64,000 nucleotides of DNA, taken from contig NZ_OW711693.1 in NCBI RefSeq assembly GCF_940670685.1, positions 2,294,001-2,358,000 of the forward strand, in the 5' to 3' direction. The translations under genes were made by a program, and so were the position numbers. Under the pieces are notes generated by a model, which made no database searches, was not told the origin of the DNA, and was given only the letters and a program-made list of their open reading frames with translations. This DNA comes from Anaeropeptidivorans aminofermentans (GTDB lineage: Bacteria; Bacillota; Clostridia; Lachnospirales; UBA5962). Of this stretch, positions 22,116-56,739 are shown piece after piece. How positions within the stretch are numbered: position 1 is the stretch's first letter; every line of letters starts with the position of its first letter.

Positions 22116-23318
22116 ATGCATTGCGTACAAAACATTACCCCTGATATATTTTGGGTAGGCGACGGAGACAGGCGCCTTGAAAGATTTGAAAATATGTTTC
22201 CCCTGCCTAACGGCGTTAGCTATAATTCCTATATTATAAAGGATGAAAAAATCGCCCTCATGGATACAGTAGATGCTTCCATAACAAGGCAGTTCTTTGA
22301 AAATATAGAGTATGTTTTAGGGGATAAAAAGCTTGATTATCTCGTAATAAACCATATGGAACCGGACCACTGTGCAAATATCGGTGAGCTTTTAATCCGC
22401 TATCCTAATGTAAAAATAGTAGGAAACAAAAAAACATTCCAATTCATATCCCAATTTTATGATTTTGATATCTCTAATAATATGATTGAAATATCTGAAG
22501 GGGATGAAATTTTCCTTGGTAAGCATACCCTTAGATTTTTTCTTGCGCCCATGGTTCACTGGCCTGAAGCAATGTTTTCATACGAAAAATCGGAGGGAAT
22601 CCTCTTTTCGGCAGATGCCTTCGGGAGCTTCGGTGCATTTACAGGAAATCTTTTTGCAGATGAAACAGATATTGAAAATCTCTACATTGACGAATATCGC
22701 CGCTATTACAGCAACATCGTAGGAAAATACGGTCCTCAGGTTCAAAATGTCCTGAAGAAGCTTGCCGGCGTGAATATAAATATGATATGCCCTCTCCACG
22801 GGCCTGTATGGAGAGAAAACCTTCCTTTTATCCTTGATAAATATAATTTATGGAGCACTTACACGCCTGAAAAAAACGGTGTCGTATTATTCTATGGCTC
22901 CATGTACGGCAATACGGAAAATACAGTAAGCCTTCTTGCAAACCTTCTTTCTCAAAAGGGCATAAAGGATTTAAGAATACATGATGTTTCAAAAACCAAT
23001 CCGTCTTATATAATTTCCGATGTCTTTAAATACAGCCATATGGTAATTGCTTCCCCTACCTACAATAACGGACTATACCTTCCTATGGAATCTTTAATAC
23101 ATGAAATGGCTGCTTTAAATATTCAGAAGAGAAAGGCATCCATTATAGGAAACGGCTCATGGGCCCCCATGGCGGATAAAAGAATTCTTCAGCTTGTAAG
23201 TGAAATGAAAAACATGGAAATCGTCGGAACTCCTCTCGTTATCCATTCAAGCCTTAAAGAAGAACAGCTTCCTGCACTTAAAGAACTTGCAGAAGCAATA
23301 TATCAATCTATGGAATAA
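22116..23318 (+). CDS. A-type flavoprotein (flavodiiron protein, FprA/NorV-like)
   Basis: 400 residues in two domains. Residues 1-about 245 form a metallo-beta-lactamase-like diiron domain with the ligand motif H80-x-E82-x-D84-H85, a later H in APMVHWPEAM, the D in FSADAFGS and the H in CPLHGP. Residues about 250-400 form a flavodoxin domain (LFYGSMYGNTENT binds FMN). These enzymes reduce oxygen to water or nitric oxide to nitrous oxide and protect anaerobes; the preferred substrate is not readable. There is no C-terminal rubredoxin domain, so electrons come from a separate protein. AGGAGG precedes the ATG by 6 bases. Its likely terminator (24077-24110) is separated from it by an insertion sequence. 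Confidence 0.93.
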   Translation: MHCVQNITPDIFWVGDGDRRLERFENMFPLPNGVSYNSYIIKDEKIALMDTVDASITRQFFENIEYVLGDKKLDYLVINHMEPDHCANIGELLIRYPNVKIVGNKKTFQFISQFYDFDISNNMIEISEGDEIFLGKHTLRFFLAPMVHWPEAMFSYEKSEGILFSADAFGSFGAFTGNLFADETDIENLYIDEYRRYYSNIVGKYGPQVQNVLKKLAGVNINMICPLHGPVWRENLPFILDKYNLWSTYTPEKNGVVLFYGSMYGNTENTVSLLANLLSQKGIKDLRIHDVSKTNPSYIISDVFKYSHMVIASPTYNNGLYLPMESLIHEMAALNIQKRKASIIGNGSWAPMADKRILQLVSEMKNMEIVGTPLVIHSSLKEEQLPALKELAEAIYQSME

Positions 23319-23321
23319 ATC

Positions 23322-24060
23322 ATGACCACCCTTAAAAGGGTGGTTTGAGCTAGGCCTGTAAGGCCTTGTTACCGGCCAGCATCTCAAGATGCTGGCTTTC
23401 ACTTAAGTTCAAGCCCCTATGCCCTTGCCTCTTTTGCTTAGCCCTTAAGGGCTATTTGTATTACCAGCTAACCCCTAAAGGGGTCTTCATATTCTTTGAC
23501 ACTCAGCTTATCTAGAGCAATGTCATGTTGCTCTTGTTCTCTGATGTATTTCTGGATGGTAGCTTCGTTCAGTCCTACCGTACTGACATAATAGCCAACT
23601 GACCAAAAATGCCGATTCCCAAACTTGTACTTCAAATTTGCATGTCGATCGAAAATCATCAGGGCACTTTTCCCTTTTAGATATCCCATAAAACTTGAAA
23701 TGCTGATCTTTGGTGGAATGCTCACTAACATATGCACATGATCTGGCATCAGGTGACCTTCGATCAGTTCTACGCCTTTGTAGCCGCATAACTCTCGAAG
23801 AATTTTCCCAATCGACTCTCGATATTGATTGAAGATGATTTTACGTCTATACTTTGGAGTGAACACAATGTGATATTTGCACATCCACTTTGTGTGGGAC
23901 AAACTATTATGTTGGTTTGCCATTGAAACACCTTTCCTTTCTGCATAGTGGCTTGAACACTCACTATTCTATTGGAAAGGTGTTTCTTGTGGTAGAACCT
24001 TTTGGTCCTCTACCCGCATAGCGGGTAGTTTTTTGTTTCGCACGCTATGCGAGCTCAACT
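23322..24060 (-). mobile_element. IS200-type insertion sequence (IS200/IS605 family)
   Basis: A single tnpA gene with no tnpB, flanked by hairpins instead of terminal inverted repeats. Near the downstream end are ACCACCCTTAAAAGGGTGGT (23325-23344) and GCCAGCATCTCAAGATGCTG (about 23377-23397). Near the upstream end are CTACCCGCATAGCGGGTAG (24010-24028) and a small CGCA/TGCG stem. The length of about 740 fits IS200. The exact cleavage sites cannot be set from one copy. Confidence 0.7.
23468..23923 (-). CDS. tnpA: IS200-like transposase TnpA (Y1 HUH)
   Basis: 151 residues, full length for the family. The HUH metal-binding motif is H62-V-H64 in PDHVHML, and the catalytic tyrosine is probably Y126 in IQKYIREQ. 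TnpA works as a dimer on single-stranded DNA, nicking at hairpin-marked ends. The N-terminal HTKWMCKYHIVFTPKYRRK and SVGYYVSTVG segments are highly typical. There is no frameshift, so the element may be functional. Hairpins around the start are known in IS200 to limit expression. Confidence 0.95.
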   Translation of the reverse strand: MANQHNSLSHTKWMCKYHIVFTPKYRRKIIFNQYRESIGKILRELCGYKGVELIEGHLMPDHVHMLVSIPPKISISSFMGYLKGKSALMIFDRHANLKYKFGNRHFWSVGYYVSTVGLNEATIQKYIREQEQHDIALDKLSVKEYEDPFRG

Positions 24061-24076
24061 GGCTTAAGCCATAAAG

Positions 24077-24110
24077 AAAAGAGGCAAACCAAAAGGTTTG
24101 CCTCTTTTAA
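24077..24110 (+). terminator. Terminator, probably of the flavodiiron protein gene
   Basis: AAAAGAGGCAAACC pairs with GGTTTGCCTCTTTT. It lies just beyond the insertion sequence and fits the transcript from 22116. Confidence 0.75.
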
Positions 24111-24160
24111 TGCAGAAAGGTGCGGTAAATTTTTAATCAAGCAACTTTTGCTAAAAATAT

Positions 24161-24295
24161 ATAATAAAATTCTTATAAAGAAGTAACAAACCGATTCATT
24201 AAAAACTCAAAAACACGGATTTGCTCCGGACACAGTACATTTTTGAGCCCTATATAATATACGGTTTTGTTACTGTTTAATTTTAAATTTACTAC
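24161..24295. repeat. Family A palindromic element, copy 3
   Basis: AGAAGTAACAAACCGATTC and ACGGTTTTGTTACTG inner arms, and the AAACACGGATTTGCTCCGG stem shared with copies at 14043 and 54067. The left terminus is degenerate; the right ends AAATTTACTAC. Confidence 0.7.
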
Positions 24296-28996: not shown

Positions 28997-29839
28997 ATGA
29001 ATTATATTGACCTGCATACCCACTCTGTTTTTTCCGACGGTACCTTTACCCCTTCTGAGCTTATTGAACGTGCAAAAGCATTGGGGCTTTCAGCCATTGC
29101 ACTTACAGACCATGATACTATCGACGGTCTTTCCGAGGCTATAGAAGCTTCCAAAAGGCTTAATATAGAATTCATAAATGGTGTTGAAATAGCAGCAGAT
29201 TATAAGGACACGGAAATTCATATAGTAGGATTACTCTTTGACAGAACCAGCACTATCCTTTCTGATTCCCTTTTAGAAATGGAAAAAAGGCGTGAAATAA
29301 GAAATAAAGAGCTCGTACTGCTTTTTAACGAAGAAGGCATTAAAATGAAGTATGAAGACATTTTAAATAAATCAGACGGCAAAATCATCACAAGGGCACA
29401 TTTTGCCAGGTTTCTCATGGAAGAAGGCTATGTAGAAAGCATAAATGACGCCTTTTTAAAATACCTCTCTCCCGGGAAGAAAACTTATATGAAAAGAGAA
29501 CTGCTTTCTTCTTCAGAGGCCATTGAACTTATACACAAGGCCGGAGGAATTGCCATTCTTGCCCATCCGGGGGAATATGGTTTTTCAGAAAAACAGCTTG
29601 AAGAAATGGTTCATGAGCTTAAAAAGCAAAATATAGATGCAATAGAAGCAATTTATACAACCAATTCTATTTATACGGAATCTTTCCATAGGGATTTGGC
29701 AAAAAGATATCATCTTAAAATAAGCGGCGGAAGTGATTTTCACGGCAGCAATAAGCCTGAAATAGAGCTTGGAAAAGGCTTTGGAAACCTTAAAATACCC
29801 TATGAAATACTTAATAAATTAAGGGATAGGGCATTGTAG
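28997..29839 (+). CDS. PHP-domain phosphoesterase (YciV / RNase AM-like)
   Basis: 280 residues. The PHP metal motifs are complete: DLHTHSVFSDGTF (about 5-17), LTDHDTIDG, NGVEIAA, a middle ITRAHFAR, the LAHPGEYG, and a late GGSDFHGSNKP. Members act as 5'-3' exoribonucleases on short RNA or as nucleoside 3',5'-bisphosphate phosphatases. Cytoplasmic. GGGGG lies about 8 bases before the ATG. The gene stands alone; tandem family B repeats follow it. Confidence 0.88.
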   Translation: MNYIDLHTHSVFSDGTFTPSELIERAKALGLSAIALTDHDTIDGLSEAIEASKRLNIEFINGVEIAADYKDTEIHIVGLLFDRTSTILSDSLLEMEKRREIRNKELVLLFNEEGIKMKYEDILNKSDGKIITRAHFARFLMEEGYVESINDAFLKYLSPGKKTYMKRELLSSSEAIELIHKAGGIAILAHPGEYGFSEKQLEEMVHELKKQNIDAIEAIYTTNSIYTESFHRDLAKRYHLKISGGSDFHGSNKPEIELGKGFGNLKIPYEILNKLRDRAL

Positions 29840-29924
29840 AAACTCCCATGATATTATATTAATTCATAGAAATATCTGAGAAAAACTCGATTTATGGTAT
29901 TCGTAAAAACTACCATTATGGTAT

Positions 29925-30092
29925 AATATGAATAAAATCAAGCTTTGCTTAATTTTATTCACGAATACATTTTCTGCAGAAAATGTATGAGGAAAATTAC
30001 GCTTATGATATAATGTAACTAAACTCAGGCTCTGTCTGAGTTTATTCACGAATATATTTCCCAAAGGGAAATATATAAGCAGGCTTTGGATT
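29925..30092. repeat. Two tandem family B paired-hairpin repeats
   Basis: Two units of about 75-80 bases. Each has a TATAAT-like start, then hairpin 1 (TAAAATCAAGC/GCTTAATTTTA; TAAACTCAGGC/CTGAGTTTA), the joint TTCACGAATA, and hairpin 2 (CATTTTC/GAAAATG; ATATTTCCC/GGGAAATAT). The arms differ between units but stay paired. A third TTATGGTATAA start follows at about 30092. Confidence 0.7.
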
Positions 30093-30170
30093 ATGGTATA
30101 AAAATCCTTTGTTGCTGCCAATACCAAATTGCTTCAATCAGCATTAAAATTTTACTTAGGAGATGATACT

Positions 30171-30758
30171 ATGATTATCCAAAACAGCCAGGGCATATCG
30201 TCAAAATTACGCATACTTACAAGGTCTGCCTTGATGGCAAGTATATTTATTATTTTTGCCCAGATACGTTTTCCTTTGCCTTTTACCCCTGTTCCCATTA
30301 CATTGCAGACCTTGGGAATTATCCTTTGTGCGTCCTTATTAAGACCAAAGGAAAGTCTGTATCCTGTTATTTTATACATATTGATGGGCGCAATAGGCCT
30401 GCCTGTATTTGCCGGCGGTAATTCTGGTCCGGCGTATTTGCTTGGCCCTACAGGAGGATTTATCATAAGCTGGATTCCTTCTGTGTTTATTATGAGCTTC
30501 ATTACGGAAAAAGCCCTTACATCAAAATACGCTTCAAAAAATATATACGCTTATATCATATATTTATTATCAATTGTAATTTTTACTCTTATGGTATATT
30601 TCATCGGCATAATATGGTTTATGGCAAGTACAGGCTCTAATCTTATGGCTTCCATCTCTGCTTGTATGCTTCCTTTTATCCCCGGAGATATCATAAAGGG
30701 ATTGATTGCTTTAATAGCTTTCCCCTATATTAGAAATATCCGCCAAAATATAATGTAA
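30171..30758 (+). CDS. bioY: BioY biotin transporter (ECF S component)
   Basis: 195 residues from the ATG at 30171, which TAGGAG precedes; an earlier TTG at 30129 lacks support. Five to six hydrophobic helices carry family signatures: RFPLPFTPVPITLQTLG, YILMGAIGLPVFAG and GPTGGFIISW. BioY binds and imports biotin with the shared EcfAAT energy module, which is not in this window. No BirA-type operator was recognised. The next gene follows 20 bases later with its own ribosome-binding site. Confidence 0.93.
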   Translation: MIIQNSQGISSKLRILTRSALMASIFIIFAQIRFPLPFTPVPITLQTLGIILCASLLRPKESLYPVILYILMGAIGLPVFAGGNSGPAYLLGPTGGFIISWIPSVFIMSFITEKALTSKYASKNIYAYIIYLLSIVIFTLMVYFIGIIWFMASTGSNLMASISACMLPFIPGDIIKGLIALIAFPYIRNIRQNIM

Positions 30759-41987: not shown

Positions 41988-42496
41988 ATCATCACACCCC
42001 CACTTTAAGGATATGATACAAGGCAAATAAAATCAAGCTTTTCTTCATTTTATTTAATACTAAACTTAGGAAAACACTTGCTTTCGCTAAAACAGGTTTT
42101 CAGCTATATTTCTATGTGAAGTATTTTGTCTTTGCAAAACCCACTCAGAAGTTTTGTTTCGCAAATTCTATGCCCCCCATAGCCGAATATCTTTCGCCTC
42201 TATCTCCGGGCCGCCGGATTTTTAACCCATGCCAAATAAATCCGGTCAAAAGCATTAAGGTCAGAAGCACTAAAACCCGTATATCAATCCTTTTATATTT
42301 TGCGGATCAAGAAGCCCTACAGTAACACTTCCCCCTGCAAAGAGGCTTTTTCTTTGCAAGGGGAAGCTTAACTTGCTTATATAGTAAAATAACCTGCTGT
42401 TTTAAGCTTTTTGAATAGAGTCCATAGTCTTAAAGTATAATATATATTTTAAAGCTATGAATACACACTGGTTTACAGATTTAAGGCAATCTACCT
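41988..42496. other. Gene-free stretch between mazG and spoVT
   Basis: It contains a possible family B remnant (42011-42062, AATAAAATCAAGC with a matching ATTTTATTT) and a GC-richer segment with ATCTCCGGGCCGCCGGATTT. A long inverted repeat, CTTCCCCCTGCAAAGA/TCTTTGCAAGGGGAAG, spans 42328-42366. No gene is seen. Confidence 0.45.
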
Positions 42497-52653: not shown

Positions 52654-52740
52654 GCTATAAGCGCAAGCTTTACGCATAAGTTTCCTGTGGGAAATGTATG
52701 CTAGGACAAAATCAAGTATAACTTAATTTTATTTATACTC
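52654..52740. repeat. Family B paired-hairpin repeat (minus orientation)
   Basis: On the minus strand: AAATTAAGT/ACTTGATTTT hairpin, then CATTTCCCACAGGAAACTTA. This matches the two-hairpin plan at 29925. Confidence 0.5.
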
Positions 52741-52756
52741 GAATAAAAGTAAAACA

Positions 52757-55276: not shown

Positions 55277-56338
55277 TTATCGAATGCTTTGTAAACCTGA
55301 TTTCATAGCAAGCTGCCTAAGAAAAGGATTATACATAGCAGGAGACTTTAAATTTTTTATGAGTAAATTTAATCTGATGCCCTTTATCCTTTGATTGTAT
55401 CTGTCTAAAAATCCATCGATTCCTTCTTCAAGGCTTTGGGCAAGATATAAGGAGCTTTTTAATGCATAGCTTATGCCTTCGGCTGAGCTTGGGCTGATTG
55501 CCCCTGCTGCTTCGCCTACAAGGGCTATATTATCCTTTCCTCCGTAGAGCTGGGAACCCCTTTTAGGGCGATTAATATATGCCCCTTCTGTTTTAAATTT
55601 ATTTTCAAAAGTAAAGCCCAGTTTTATGAGCTTTGCCTTTAATAAATTATACTTATTCCATGTATCTTCTCTGGGTCTAAGGGCCGAGCCTAATAATAAA
55701 TAATTGTCCTTTGGTATAACCCATGAATAAAAATCACTTATTTCTTCATCAAAAATCGCTGTAAAATAAGGCGTATATTCTGTGCATTCATACCATTCCT
55801 GAATTGAAATGTACTTTTCAGGAGAGCTTATATCTTCAGCAATTAATTTTCTTATCTTAGAAGAAGCACCGTCGGCTCCTACAATAATTTTCGTCTTGGC
55901 AAGTATTTCCTGTCCGTTATAAATGTAGCTGATTTCATACCCGCCGGATATTTCAGTAAAACTTTTAAAATATGCGTTTAATCTTTTATCAACCTCATTT
56001 GGAATTATAGAAATCAGCCATTGATCAAATTTATCCCTATCCATATTAAAATAAAATCTCTGATACAGCCTCTCCAGATTATTGTTTAAATCAAGGGTTC
56101 TTACAGCAAAAAGCTGCGGATTAACCAGAATATCTTTCGGTATCCCCAACCCCAGCTGCGCAATCATTTTCTGTGCATCAGGGGCCAATAGTCCTCCGCA
56201 GCATTTATTTTTTATTTTCTTTGGATTCTCATTTTCCATGTCACGTTTATCTATTAATAAAACCTTATATTTACTTCCTATAAGCCGTGCAAGGGTAGCC
56301 CCTGCAGGTCCCGCCCCTACGATTACAATATCATACAT
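55277..56338 (-). CDS. FAD-dependent oxidoreductase (geranylgeranyl reductase / CbrA-like)
   Basis: 353 residues. N-terminal FAD motif IVGAGPAGATLARLIG (about 6-21), a CCGGLL segment, MDRDKFDQWL, the second FAD motif KIIVGADGASSKIRK (about 148-162), and the GEAAGAISPSSAEGISYALK block that contacts FAD. This is the geranylgeranyl reductase-like group, which reduces isoprenoid or unusual lipid double bonds or acts on other hydrophobic substrates. The substrate is unknown. It stands alone. Confidence 0.85.
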   Translation of the reverse strand: MYDIVIVGAGPAGATLARLIGSKYKVLLIDKRDMENENPKKIKNKCCGGLLAPDAQKMIAQLGLGIPKDILVNPQLFAVRTLDLNNNLERLYQRFYFNMDRDKFDQWLISIIPNEVDKRLNAYFKSFTEISGGYEISYIYNGQEILAKTKIIVGADGASSKIRKLIAEDISSPEKYISIQEWYECTEYTPYFTAIFDEEISDFYSWVIPKDNYLLLGSALRPREDTWNKYNLLKAKLIKLGFTFENKFKTEGAYINRPKRGSQLYGGKDNIALVGEAAGAISPSSAEGISYALKSSLYLAQSLEEGIDGFLDRYNQRIKGIRLNLLIKNLKSPAMYNPFLRQLAMKSGLQSIR

Positions 56339-56612
56339 AAATATAACCTCACAAAATAATTATATGTGCAATGGTTTTAAACTAAAAATTTATGATTGGC
56401 ATAGGTTCGTTCCTATAGCCAATTTGCTTTTATTCTGCTTCAAATATTTTACTTTAAAGGGCGTTCCTCCTAAGAAATATATTCATAAACAAAATTAAGT
56501 GCGCTTGATTTTACACTAAGCGAGCTTGGAAAAAAACAAAAGTAAGCTTATAAATCTTTTTAAGTGAGCATCCTCTTATAATTATCAAGCTTATTTTTAA
56601 ATTTCATAACTA
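56339..56612. other. Gene-free stretch
   Basis: AT-rich. A TATAGCCAATTTGCTTTTATTC segment (from 56417) matches the left end of family C, but no right half is present. Nothing else is recognised. Confidence 0.4.
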
Positions 56613-56720
56613 TATTCATATTATATCATAAGCATAGGTTCTGCTCATACATTCCCCTTTGGGAAATGTGTTCGCAGATAAAACTAAGCAGAGCTTAGTT
56701 TTATCCATATTATATCACAT
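56613..56720. repeat. Family B paired-hairpin repeat (minus orientation)
   Basis: On the minus strand: GATATAATATGGATAAAAC, hairpin AACTAAGCTCTGCTTAGTT, then ACATTTCCCAAAGGGGAATG and a second GATATAATATGAATA. The clearest single copy. Confidence 0.7.
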
Positions 56721-56739
56721 CTAATATATTTCATAAATA

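Follow-up and report, generated by a model that had tools for sequence, protein, structure and literature searches.

A dispersed two-hairpin repeat that begins at -10 boxes in Anaeropeptidivorans aminofermentans, probably a mobile promoter-and-leader cassette

The chromosome of Anaeropeptidivorans aminofermentans, which comprises 3,757,330 bp in one contig, contains a family of about 130 small repeat units that are arranged in 68 clusters and occur singly or in arrays of up to ten. As judged from sequence, the repeat is best read as a cassette of promoter and leader, private to this lineage and probably mobile, which expands into arrays of hairpins within the 5' leaders of genes. No published description of the family was found in literature searches judged by titles, and the main text of the genome paper on strain M3/9T, a biogas isolate, uses the word "repeat" just once, supplements aside (PMC9682168).

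The tandem pair upstream of bioY and the extent of the family

The starting point was a tandem pair of units at positions 29916-30102 of the window, i.e., the whole analyzed stretch of 64,000 nucleotides. In agreement with the original prediction of two tandem units sharing the plan TATAAT, hairpin 1, hairpin 2, each consists of a TATAAT box, a hairpin with 15-nt arms, a CACGAATA joint and a second hairpin, while a third TATAA box closes the pair. The units are spaced by 87 nt and are 78% identical over 67 nt. On the plus strand, unit 1 opens with the left extended -10 box TTATGGTATAAT (29916..29927), 1 nt past which hairpin 1 begins (29929..29961; 15-nt arms and a 3-nt loop), followed by hairpin 2 (ATACATTTTCTG/CAGAAAATGTAT, with GA at either flank; 29965..29988) and the tail GAGGAAAATTACGC (29989..30002), which agrees with the family tail GAGCARAACYTAYGC. 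The middle extended -10 box TTATGATATAAT (30003..30014) forms both the right end of unit 1 and the left end of unit 2. Still on the plus strand, unit 2 continues with its own hairpin 1 (about 30016..30048), the 10-bp core of which (30021-30043) differs in sequence from that of unit 1, and with hairpin 2, ATATATTTCCC AAA GGGAAATATAT (30052..30076). The right extended -10 box TTATGGTATAAA (30091..30102, plus strand) lies 69 nt ahead of the start codon of a BioY family gene (PF02632; 30171..30758, plus strand). The TATAAT boxes of the window are direct repeats that all point in one direction, into the element and on towards bioY, and the ends of the family unit are direct repeats of TTATGRTATAAT. 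When RNA folds were predicted from the expected transcription start, the best structure of window unit 1 was one without hairpin 1; window unit 2 and the unit at 56628 formed the expected structure.

The two reversed copies anticipated near 52654 and 56613 were both recovered by a covariance model. The latter is a single intact unit with a -10 box at each end (56628..56726, minus strand; 101.8 bits), and the gene downstream of it (55277..56338, minus strand, own open reading frame call) has an N-terminal match to PF01494 (FAD_binding_3). Downstream of this intact unit lies another that is decayed (56465-56520, minus strand; 15 bits). The former copy is a single decayed unit (52657..52754, minus strand; 48.5 bits) that precedes a pseudouridine synthase gene (PseudoU_synth_2, PF00849; 51950..52612, minus strand). 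Of the copy suspected near 42011, there is a weak partial relative comprising hairpin 1 without the rest (42005..42085, plus strand; 35.9 bits, E = 1.4e-5 over 476 kb). At chromosome positions 2358166-2358681, about 165 bases outside the right edge of the window, there is a six-unit array.

A whole-genome blastn search with one unit yielded 123 matches; with a covariance model derived from 20 units, 143 were obtained (150 candidates scored), some matches in either search being the palindrome on the reverse strand. The genome-wide covariance search that had been proposed thus refutes the notion that no further copies exist, and these matches, together with the finding that none of 500 shuffles equalled the observed covariation, rule out a chance repeat. 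The count of 68 clusters excludes nhmmer matches below 24 bits and those sharing more than 15 bases with a better match; weak model matches at 795396, 3317943, 3374689 and 3384200 likewise fall outside it. At locus L094:1041-1144 (plus strand), we observed TGGTATAATG in a variant whose hairpin 1, GTGAATGTCTTCTCCC...GGGAGAAGGCATTCAT, is unrelated; this suggests additional hairpin-1 subfamilies that escape the model or receive low scores.

Outside this genome, the family appears to be absent or nearly so. Nothing above a weak match was found in 20 relatives, and at E <= 0.001 the model gave weak matches, four in all, in three of 195 other genomes of the order, each of them a plain hairpin or a match with a poor hairpin 2. 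Among 390 other genomes of the class, one contained a match at E <= 1e-4, already included in those four. Searches over more than 40 genomes used stricter filters that weak relatives may escape. The exact core TTTTATYCACGAATACATTT had no match in 84,980 species genomes, a similar core had none in viral contigs, and blastn found no copy in phage or plasmid collections, all of these being collections from which the own or very near genomes may be missing.

Pairing, promoter geometry and tandem arrays

Compensatory changes in the stems, a central element of the original prediction, are borne out. In 20 distinct units, 95.4% of the cells in paired columns are paired and 13 of the 26 pairs exhibit double changes, with a covariation score not equalled in any of the 500 shuffles; when the partner is shifted by one to three columns, at most 48% remain paired. 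There is also support for selection that acts on pairing and not on sequence, as the hairpin 1 of some first units (e.g., in clusters 546550, 2129065 and 38262) is unrelated in sequence and nevertheless perfectly paired, the types including GAAGACCTTCTCCC and GGAAGGGAAGC.

The two hairpins differ in the kind of mismatch that they tolerate. In hairpin 1, measured in 63 of the 68 clusters, first units have 31 G.U and 26 A.C mismatches; the former barely exceed the latter, so that there is no sign of selection at the RNA rather than the DNA level. Hairpin 2 is conserved in sequence, and its stem runs through a GA/GA step (57 of 96 distinct units) or a paired GA/TC (17 of 96). In the 57 units with the GA/GA step, the closing pair past it is C-G in 30, T-A in 20, T.G in five and C.A in one, i.e., it covaries, with Watson-Crick pairs in 50 of the 57 vs. 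28.9 by shuffling. Mismatches of hairpin 2 favor G.U (39) over A.C (18). From these sequence features, we read hairpin 2 as being under constraint at the RNA level.

A -10 box matching TATAAT in at least five of six positions precedes 57 of the 68 clusters and is perfect in 45; in 35 of these 57 it has the extended form TGN-TATAAT, with TG one base before the box. The 15-bp palindrome of hairpin 1 begins one base past the box, and in 44 of 58 first units the last T of the box and the innermost base of the arm are 16 nt apart. TATAAT boxes abutted by a palindrome make up 44 of 1242 in sequence of the own genome vs. one of 751 in 80 loci of other Firmicutes, a descriptive contrast, as the own-genome regions were picked for containing units. 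A -35 box (at least four of six matches, spacing 16-18) occurs ahead of eight of the 12 arrays of three or more units, with 1.8 expected and none of 2000 shuffles as high. Clusters of one or two units show no such excess (nine of 45 vs. 7.1 expected).

With regard to genomic position, the association with gene ends that had been proposed for examination is one with the 5' side, a gene on the same strand lying downstream of 57 of the 68 clusters and of 35 of the 41 scoring at least 50 bits (gene calls stem from our own open reading frame script rather than from annotation). Relative to the unit, the upstream and downstream genes are oriented same/same in 33 cases, opposite/same in 24, opposite/opposite in six and same/opposite in five; the 11 clusters that do not read into a same-strand gene are accordingly antisense (six) or located between convergent genes (five). 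In co-directional gaps, 33 sense units stand against six antisense ones (p = 1.4e-5), while divergent gaps hold 24 units vs. about 9-10 expected and convergent gaps five vs. about 14 (p = 1e-5 or lower). The suggestion that TATAAT ends serve as outward -10 boxes for neighbors is supported with respect to the -10 role, given the reading into same-strand genes and the -35 boxes of arrays, and fails with respect to the outward direction, the ends being direct repeats. A Pfam family was assigned to 36 of 40 downstream proteins scanned (out of 57 same-strand downstream genes), with no common function emerging. The genes are mostly housekeeping genes of unrelated function and encode FtsZ, preceded by a ten-unit array, DnaX, glutamyl-tRNA synthetase (gltX), LexA, IspF, Dxs, IMP dehydrogenase (guaB), PurH, ClpP, FtsK, superoxide dismutase and BioY, among others.

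First and inner units of arrays were compared in 15 of the 22 multi-unit clusters, which were picked by hand; periods are 82-90 and linkers are near-identical within an array. A perfect TATAAT is present in all 15 first units vs. two of 52 inner units in a scan with a narrower window, in which two non-stem stretches were skipped; a wider window gave five of 54. All 15 first units possess the 15 bp of hairpin 1, one with a G.T pair, whereas inner units retain the inner 8 bp and have lost the outer 5-7 bp. Median identities of inner to first units are 0.33 for the -10 box, 0.23 for the outer arm, 0.88 for the inner arm, 1.0 for the 3' arm and 0.94 for hairpin 2 (Wilcoxon p = 6e-5 for the contrast), as determined without gaps, so that indels depress the values for the -10 box and the outer arm. 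In most arrays, conservation steps up 5-9 nt past the -10 box. As this is where transcription would be expected to start, the arrays keep the would-be transcript and lose the would-be promoter.

The multi-unit clusters left out of this comparison are 863151, 1840924, 1966393, 2323913 (the window pair), 2542228, 2902113 and 3427965. Their first units match TATAAT in 6/6 positions in three cases, 5/6 in two and 3/6 in two, and later units are mixed (two of eight perfect). The middle TATAAT is kept in the window pair and in some others of the seven. Pairs of unlike units, such as that in the window, are more suggestive of two independent arrivals, or of an old tandem, than of amplification in place.

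Possible explanations

The explanation that we consider marginally likelier to be right than wrong is that a small dispersed repeat brings a sigma-A promoter with it, or attaches itself to one, and provides the beginning of the mRNA. A unit would then consist of an extended -10 box, one base, a 15-bp palindrome, a joint of the type present in the window pair, a hairpin 2 with tandem G.A, a tail of about 15 nt and a second extended -10 box. RNA polymerase would start about 7 nt past the first TATAAT, within the 5' arm of hairpin 1, and a hairpin of about 10 bp and then hairpin 2 would come first in the mRNA of the downstream gene. Known promoter geometry places the expected start at the base with which the inner hairpin opens, and hairpin 1 would thereby become a 5'-terminal stem-loop. 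From the second -10 box, an alternative start would give a message free of hairpins. Units would have spread to at least 68 places, mostly ahead of housekeeping genes, and then multiplied in tandem inside leaders, the array copies retaining the transcribed part and dropping the -10 box. The effect on the mRNA would most likely be protection of the 5' end and tuning of expression by leader hairpins. What speaks against a leader is that transcription from the expected start would leave out the outer five pairs of hairpin 1, for which an RNA hairpin therefore does not account; these pairs may have a role in insertion or, as DNA, in the opening of the promoter. Also counting against this explanation are the best fold of window unit 1, the nearly equal G.U and A.C numbers in hairpin 1, the missing -35 excess in clusters of one or two units, the 11 clusters not oriented towards a same-strand gene and the middle TATAAT retained in the window pair and in some other clusters.

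Mobility enters this picture indirectly. Empty sites were sought via relatives, and none was found, the nearest PurH in 84,980 genomes being 65% identical and a close relative thus lacking from that set; we therefore infer mobility from dispersal. Derivation from IS200/IS605 elements was rejected, as none of the ends compared by eye for 22 of the 26 Y1 transposase matches in the genome resembles the unit. Three of the 68 clusters lie within about 600 bp of an IS200-type transposase. One of them is cluster 912019 (chromosome 911400-913500), where an IS200-type element occupies precisely the left end of a hairpin unit, the box of which is CATAAT, not TATAAT. In a separate observation, IS200-type (Y1) elements at window positions 23300-24250 (minus strand) and at loci L121-L142 tend to be located directly behind hairpins that resemble intrinsic terminators, with a T run ending in ATT, as holds by eye for seven of ten copies of one subfamily, suggesting that IS200-type elements of this genome target terminators.

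A docking element strikes us as a rather unlikely alternative: hairpin 1, hairpin 2, the tail and the right-hand TTATGATATAAT would insert exactly behind the existing -10 box of a host promoter, and the box rebuilt at the exit would leave the gene with a promoter. Such an insertion would explain the direct repeats at either end, the sense orientation and the tolerance of units ahead of important genes such as ftsZ, dnaX and gltX; arrays are moreover preceded by a host-like -35 box and yet share no common upstream sequence, and in several places a decayed unit is found on the upstream side of an intact one. The missing empty site, the lack of a -35 excess ahead of single units and the dissimilarity of the IS200-type ends examined argue against docking. 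It also appears improbable that a docking element then multiplies as exactly the transcribed portion, via selection for leader RNA dose or via RNA-templated copying, with essential genes being expressed through rows of hairpins, as many as ten units in the case of ftsZ. Retro-copying was rejected, there being no RVT_1 match in the genome at E <= 0.001.

We attach equally little probability to a purely selfish, MITE-like repeat, in which the upstream sense bias would reflect insertion preference and the hairpins would serve mobilization. The missing RNA-like G.U bias of hairpin 1, the restriction of the complete 15-bp palindrome to units with a -10 box and the unrelated functions of the target genes are all compatible with such a repeat. 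It does not account for inner array units that retain the inner hairpin 1 and hairpin 2 while the -10 box and the outer arm diverge, for first -10 boxes that are perfect in each of the 15 arrays, or for the covariation and G.U bias of hairpin 2. A MITE proper was rejected, since the ends are direct and not inverted repeats and no other duplication was seen by eye in 68 pairs of flanks. At cluster 110543 (L070:3038-3180, plus strand), which sits between dnaX and a candidate SRP-RNA-like sequence (own reading), a unit has its left end repeated behind it in inverted form, GCTTAATTTTATTCACATTATA, which gives the shape of a terminal inverted repeat.

Two further explanations are decidedly improbable. 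One is a DNA-level switch, in which supercoiling would drive the palindrome next to the -10 box into a cruciform and the promoter would thereby be opened or shut; it would agree with the fixed distance of one base in 44 of 58 first units, with the joint loss of the -10 box and the outer part of the palindrome and with the about equal numbers of G.T and A.C mismatches, but leaves hairpin 2 and the inner hairpins retained in arrays without -10 boxes unexplained. The other, for which the prospects are similarly poor, is a cis-regulatory RNA, i.e., a riboswitch or protein-binding leader defining a regulon. The sense 5' position and the conserved hairpin 2 with its tandem G.A and covariation point in this direction; against it stand the unrelated target genes, the absence of an intrinsic terminator (G+C-rich stem plus T run) from window positions 29800-30250 and the result of the Rfam search, in which the gathering-score matches of the window were two tRNAs only, none in the window units, and two array stretches gave sub-threshold matches, so that a known Rfam RNA was rejected. 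A CRISPR array was dismissed because the linkers are near-identical within an array and not unique spacers (the type VI CRISPR locus described at 3,579,842-3,590,818, PMC9682168, contains none of the 68 clusters), and a coding minisatellite because periods of 82-90 are not in frame.

Relation to known repeats and significance

With about 130 units in 68 clusters at unrelated intergenic sites, the family belongs to the small interspersed repeats of bacteria in the broad sense that includes MITE- and BOX-like elements. It also resembles mobile promoters, i.e., promoter sequences duplicated ahead of unrelated genes, in that a promoter motif lies in sense orientation upstream of non-homologous genes; the present repeat differs in adding a two-hairpin leader and in forming arrays. 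Correia elements of Neisseria are small repeats able to bring promoters to neighboring genes; unlike in these, the end boxes of the present unit are direct rather than inverted, and two hairpins and tandem arrays are present. REP, BIME and REPIN sequences, associated with Y1 transposases, are likewise hairpin repeats that form tandem arrays, and the present genome contains 26 Y1 matches, but the IS200-type ends examined are unlike the unit. The MIRU minisatellites of Mycobacterium tuberculosis are dispersed intergenic repeats that expand in tandem, from which the arrays described here deviate by periods that do not keep the frame and by having no coding character that we could see.

As compared by architecture, the family is similar to the BOX elements of Streptococcus pneumoniae, which are described as short, dispersed, modular intergenic repeats, folded and transcribed, with a middle module in variable tandem number (PMC3049150). 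BOX elements are over-represented between convergent genes according to the same account (PMC3049150), whereas the present family is depleted in convergent gaps, lies upstream in sense orientation and begins at a -10 box. We regard the small dispersed repeats described here as a new family that is unusual in its link to the -10 box, and do not assign it to the BOX, CRISPR, Rfam or Y1-derived families. Stem-loops at the 5' terminus are reported to stabilize mRNAs such as those of ompA and aprE (PMC3997798). Our repeat would share with them a hairpin at the 5' end of the mRNA, which is expected here from the position of the -10 box, but those are leaders of single genes and not a dispersed family.

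If the preferred reading of a promoter-borne or promoter-docked leader is true, one small repeat has taken over the promoter-leader region of dozens of housekeeping genes, and pairing has been kept beside the -10 box while the sequence turned over. The organism would then offer a natural series of one to ten hairpin modules at matched promoters, in which the effects of 5' structure on mRNA life and output could be studied, and the family would represent a mobile sequence that targets, or carries, the promoter core itself.
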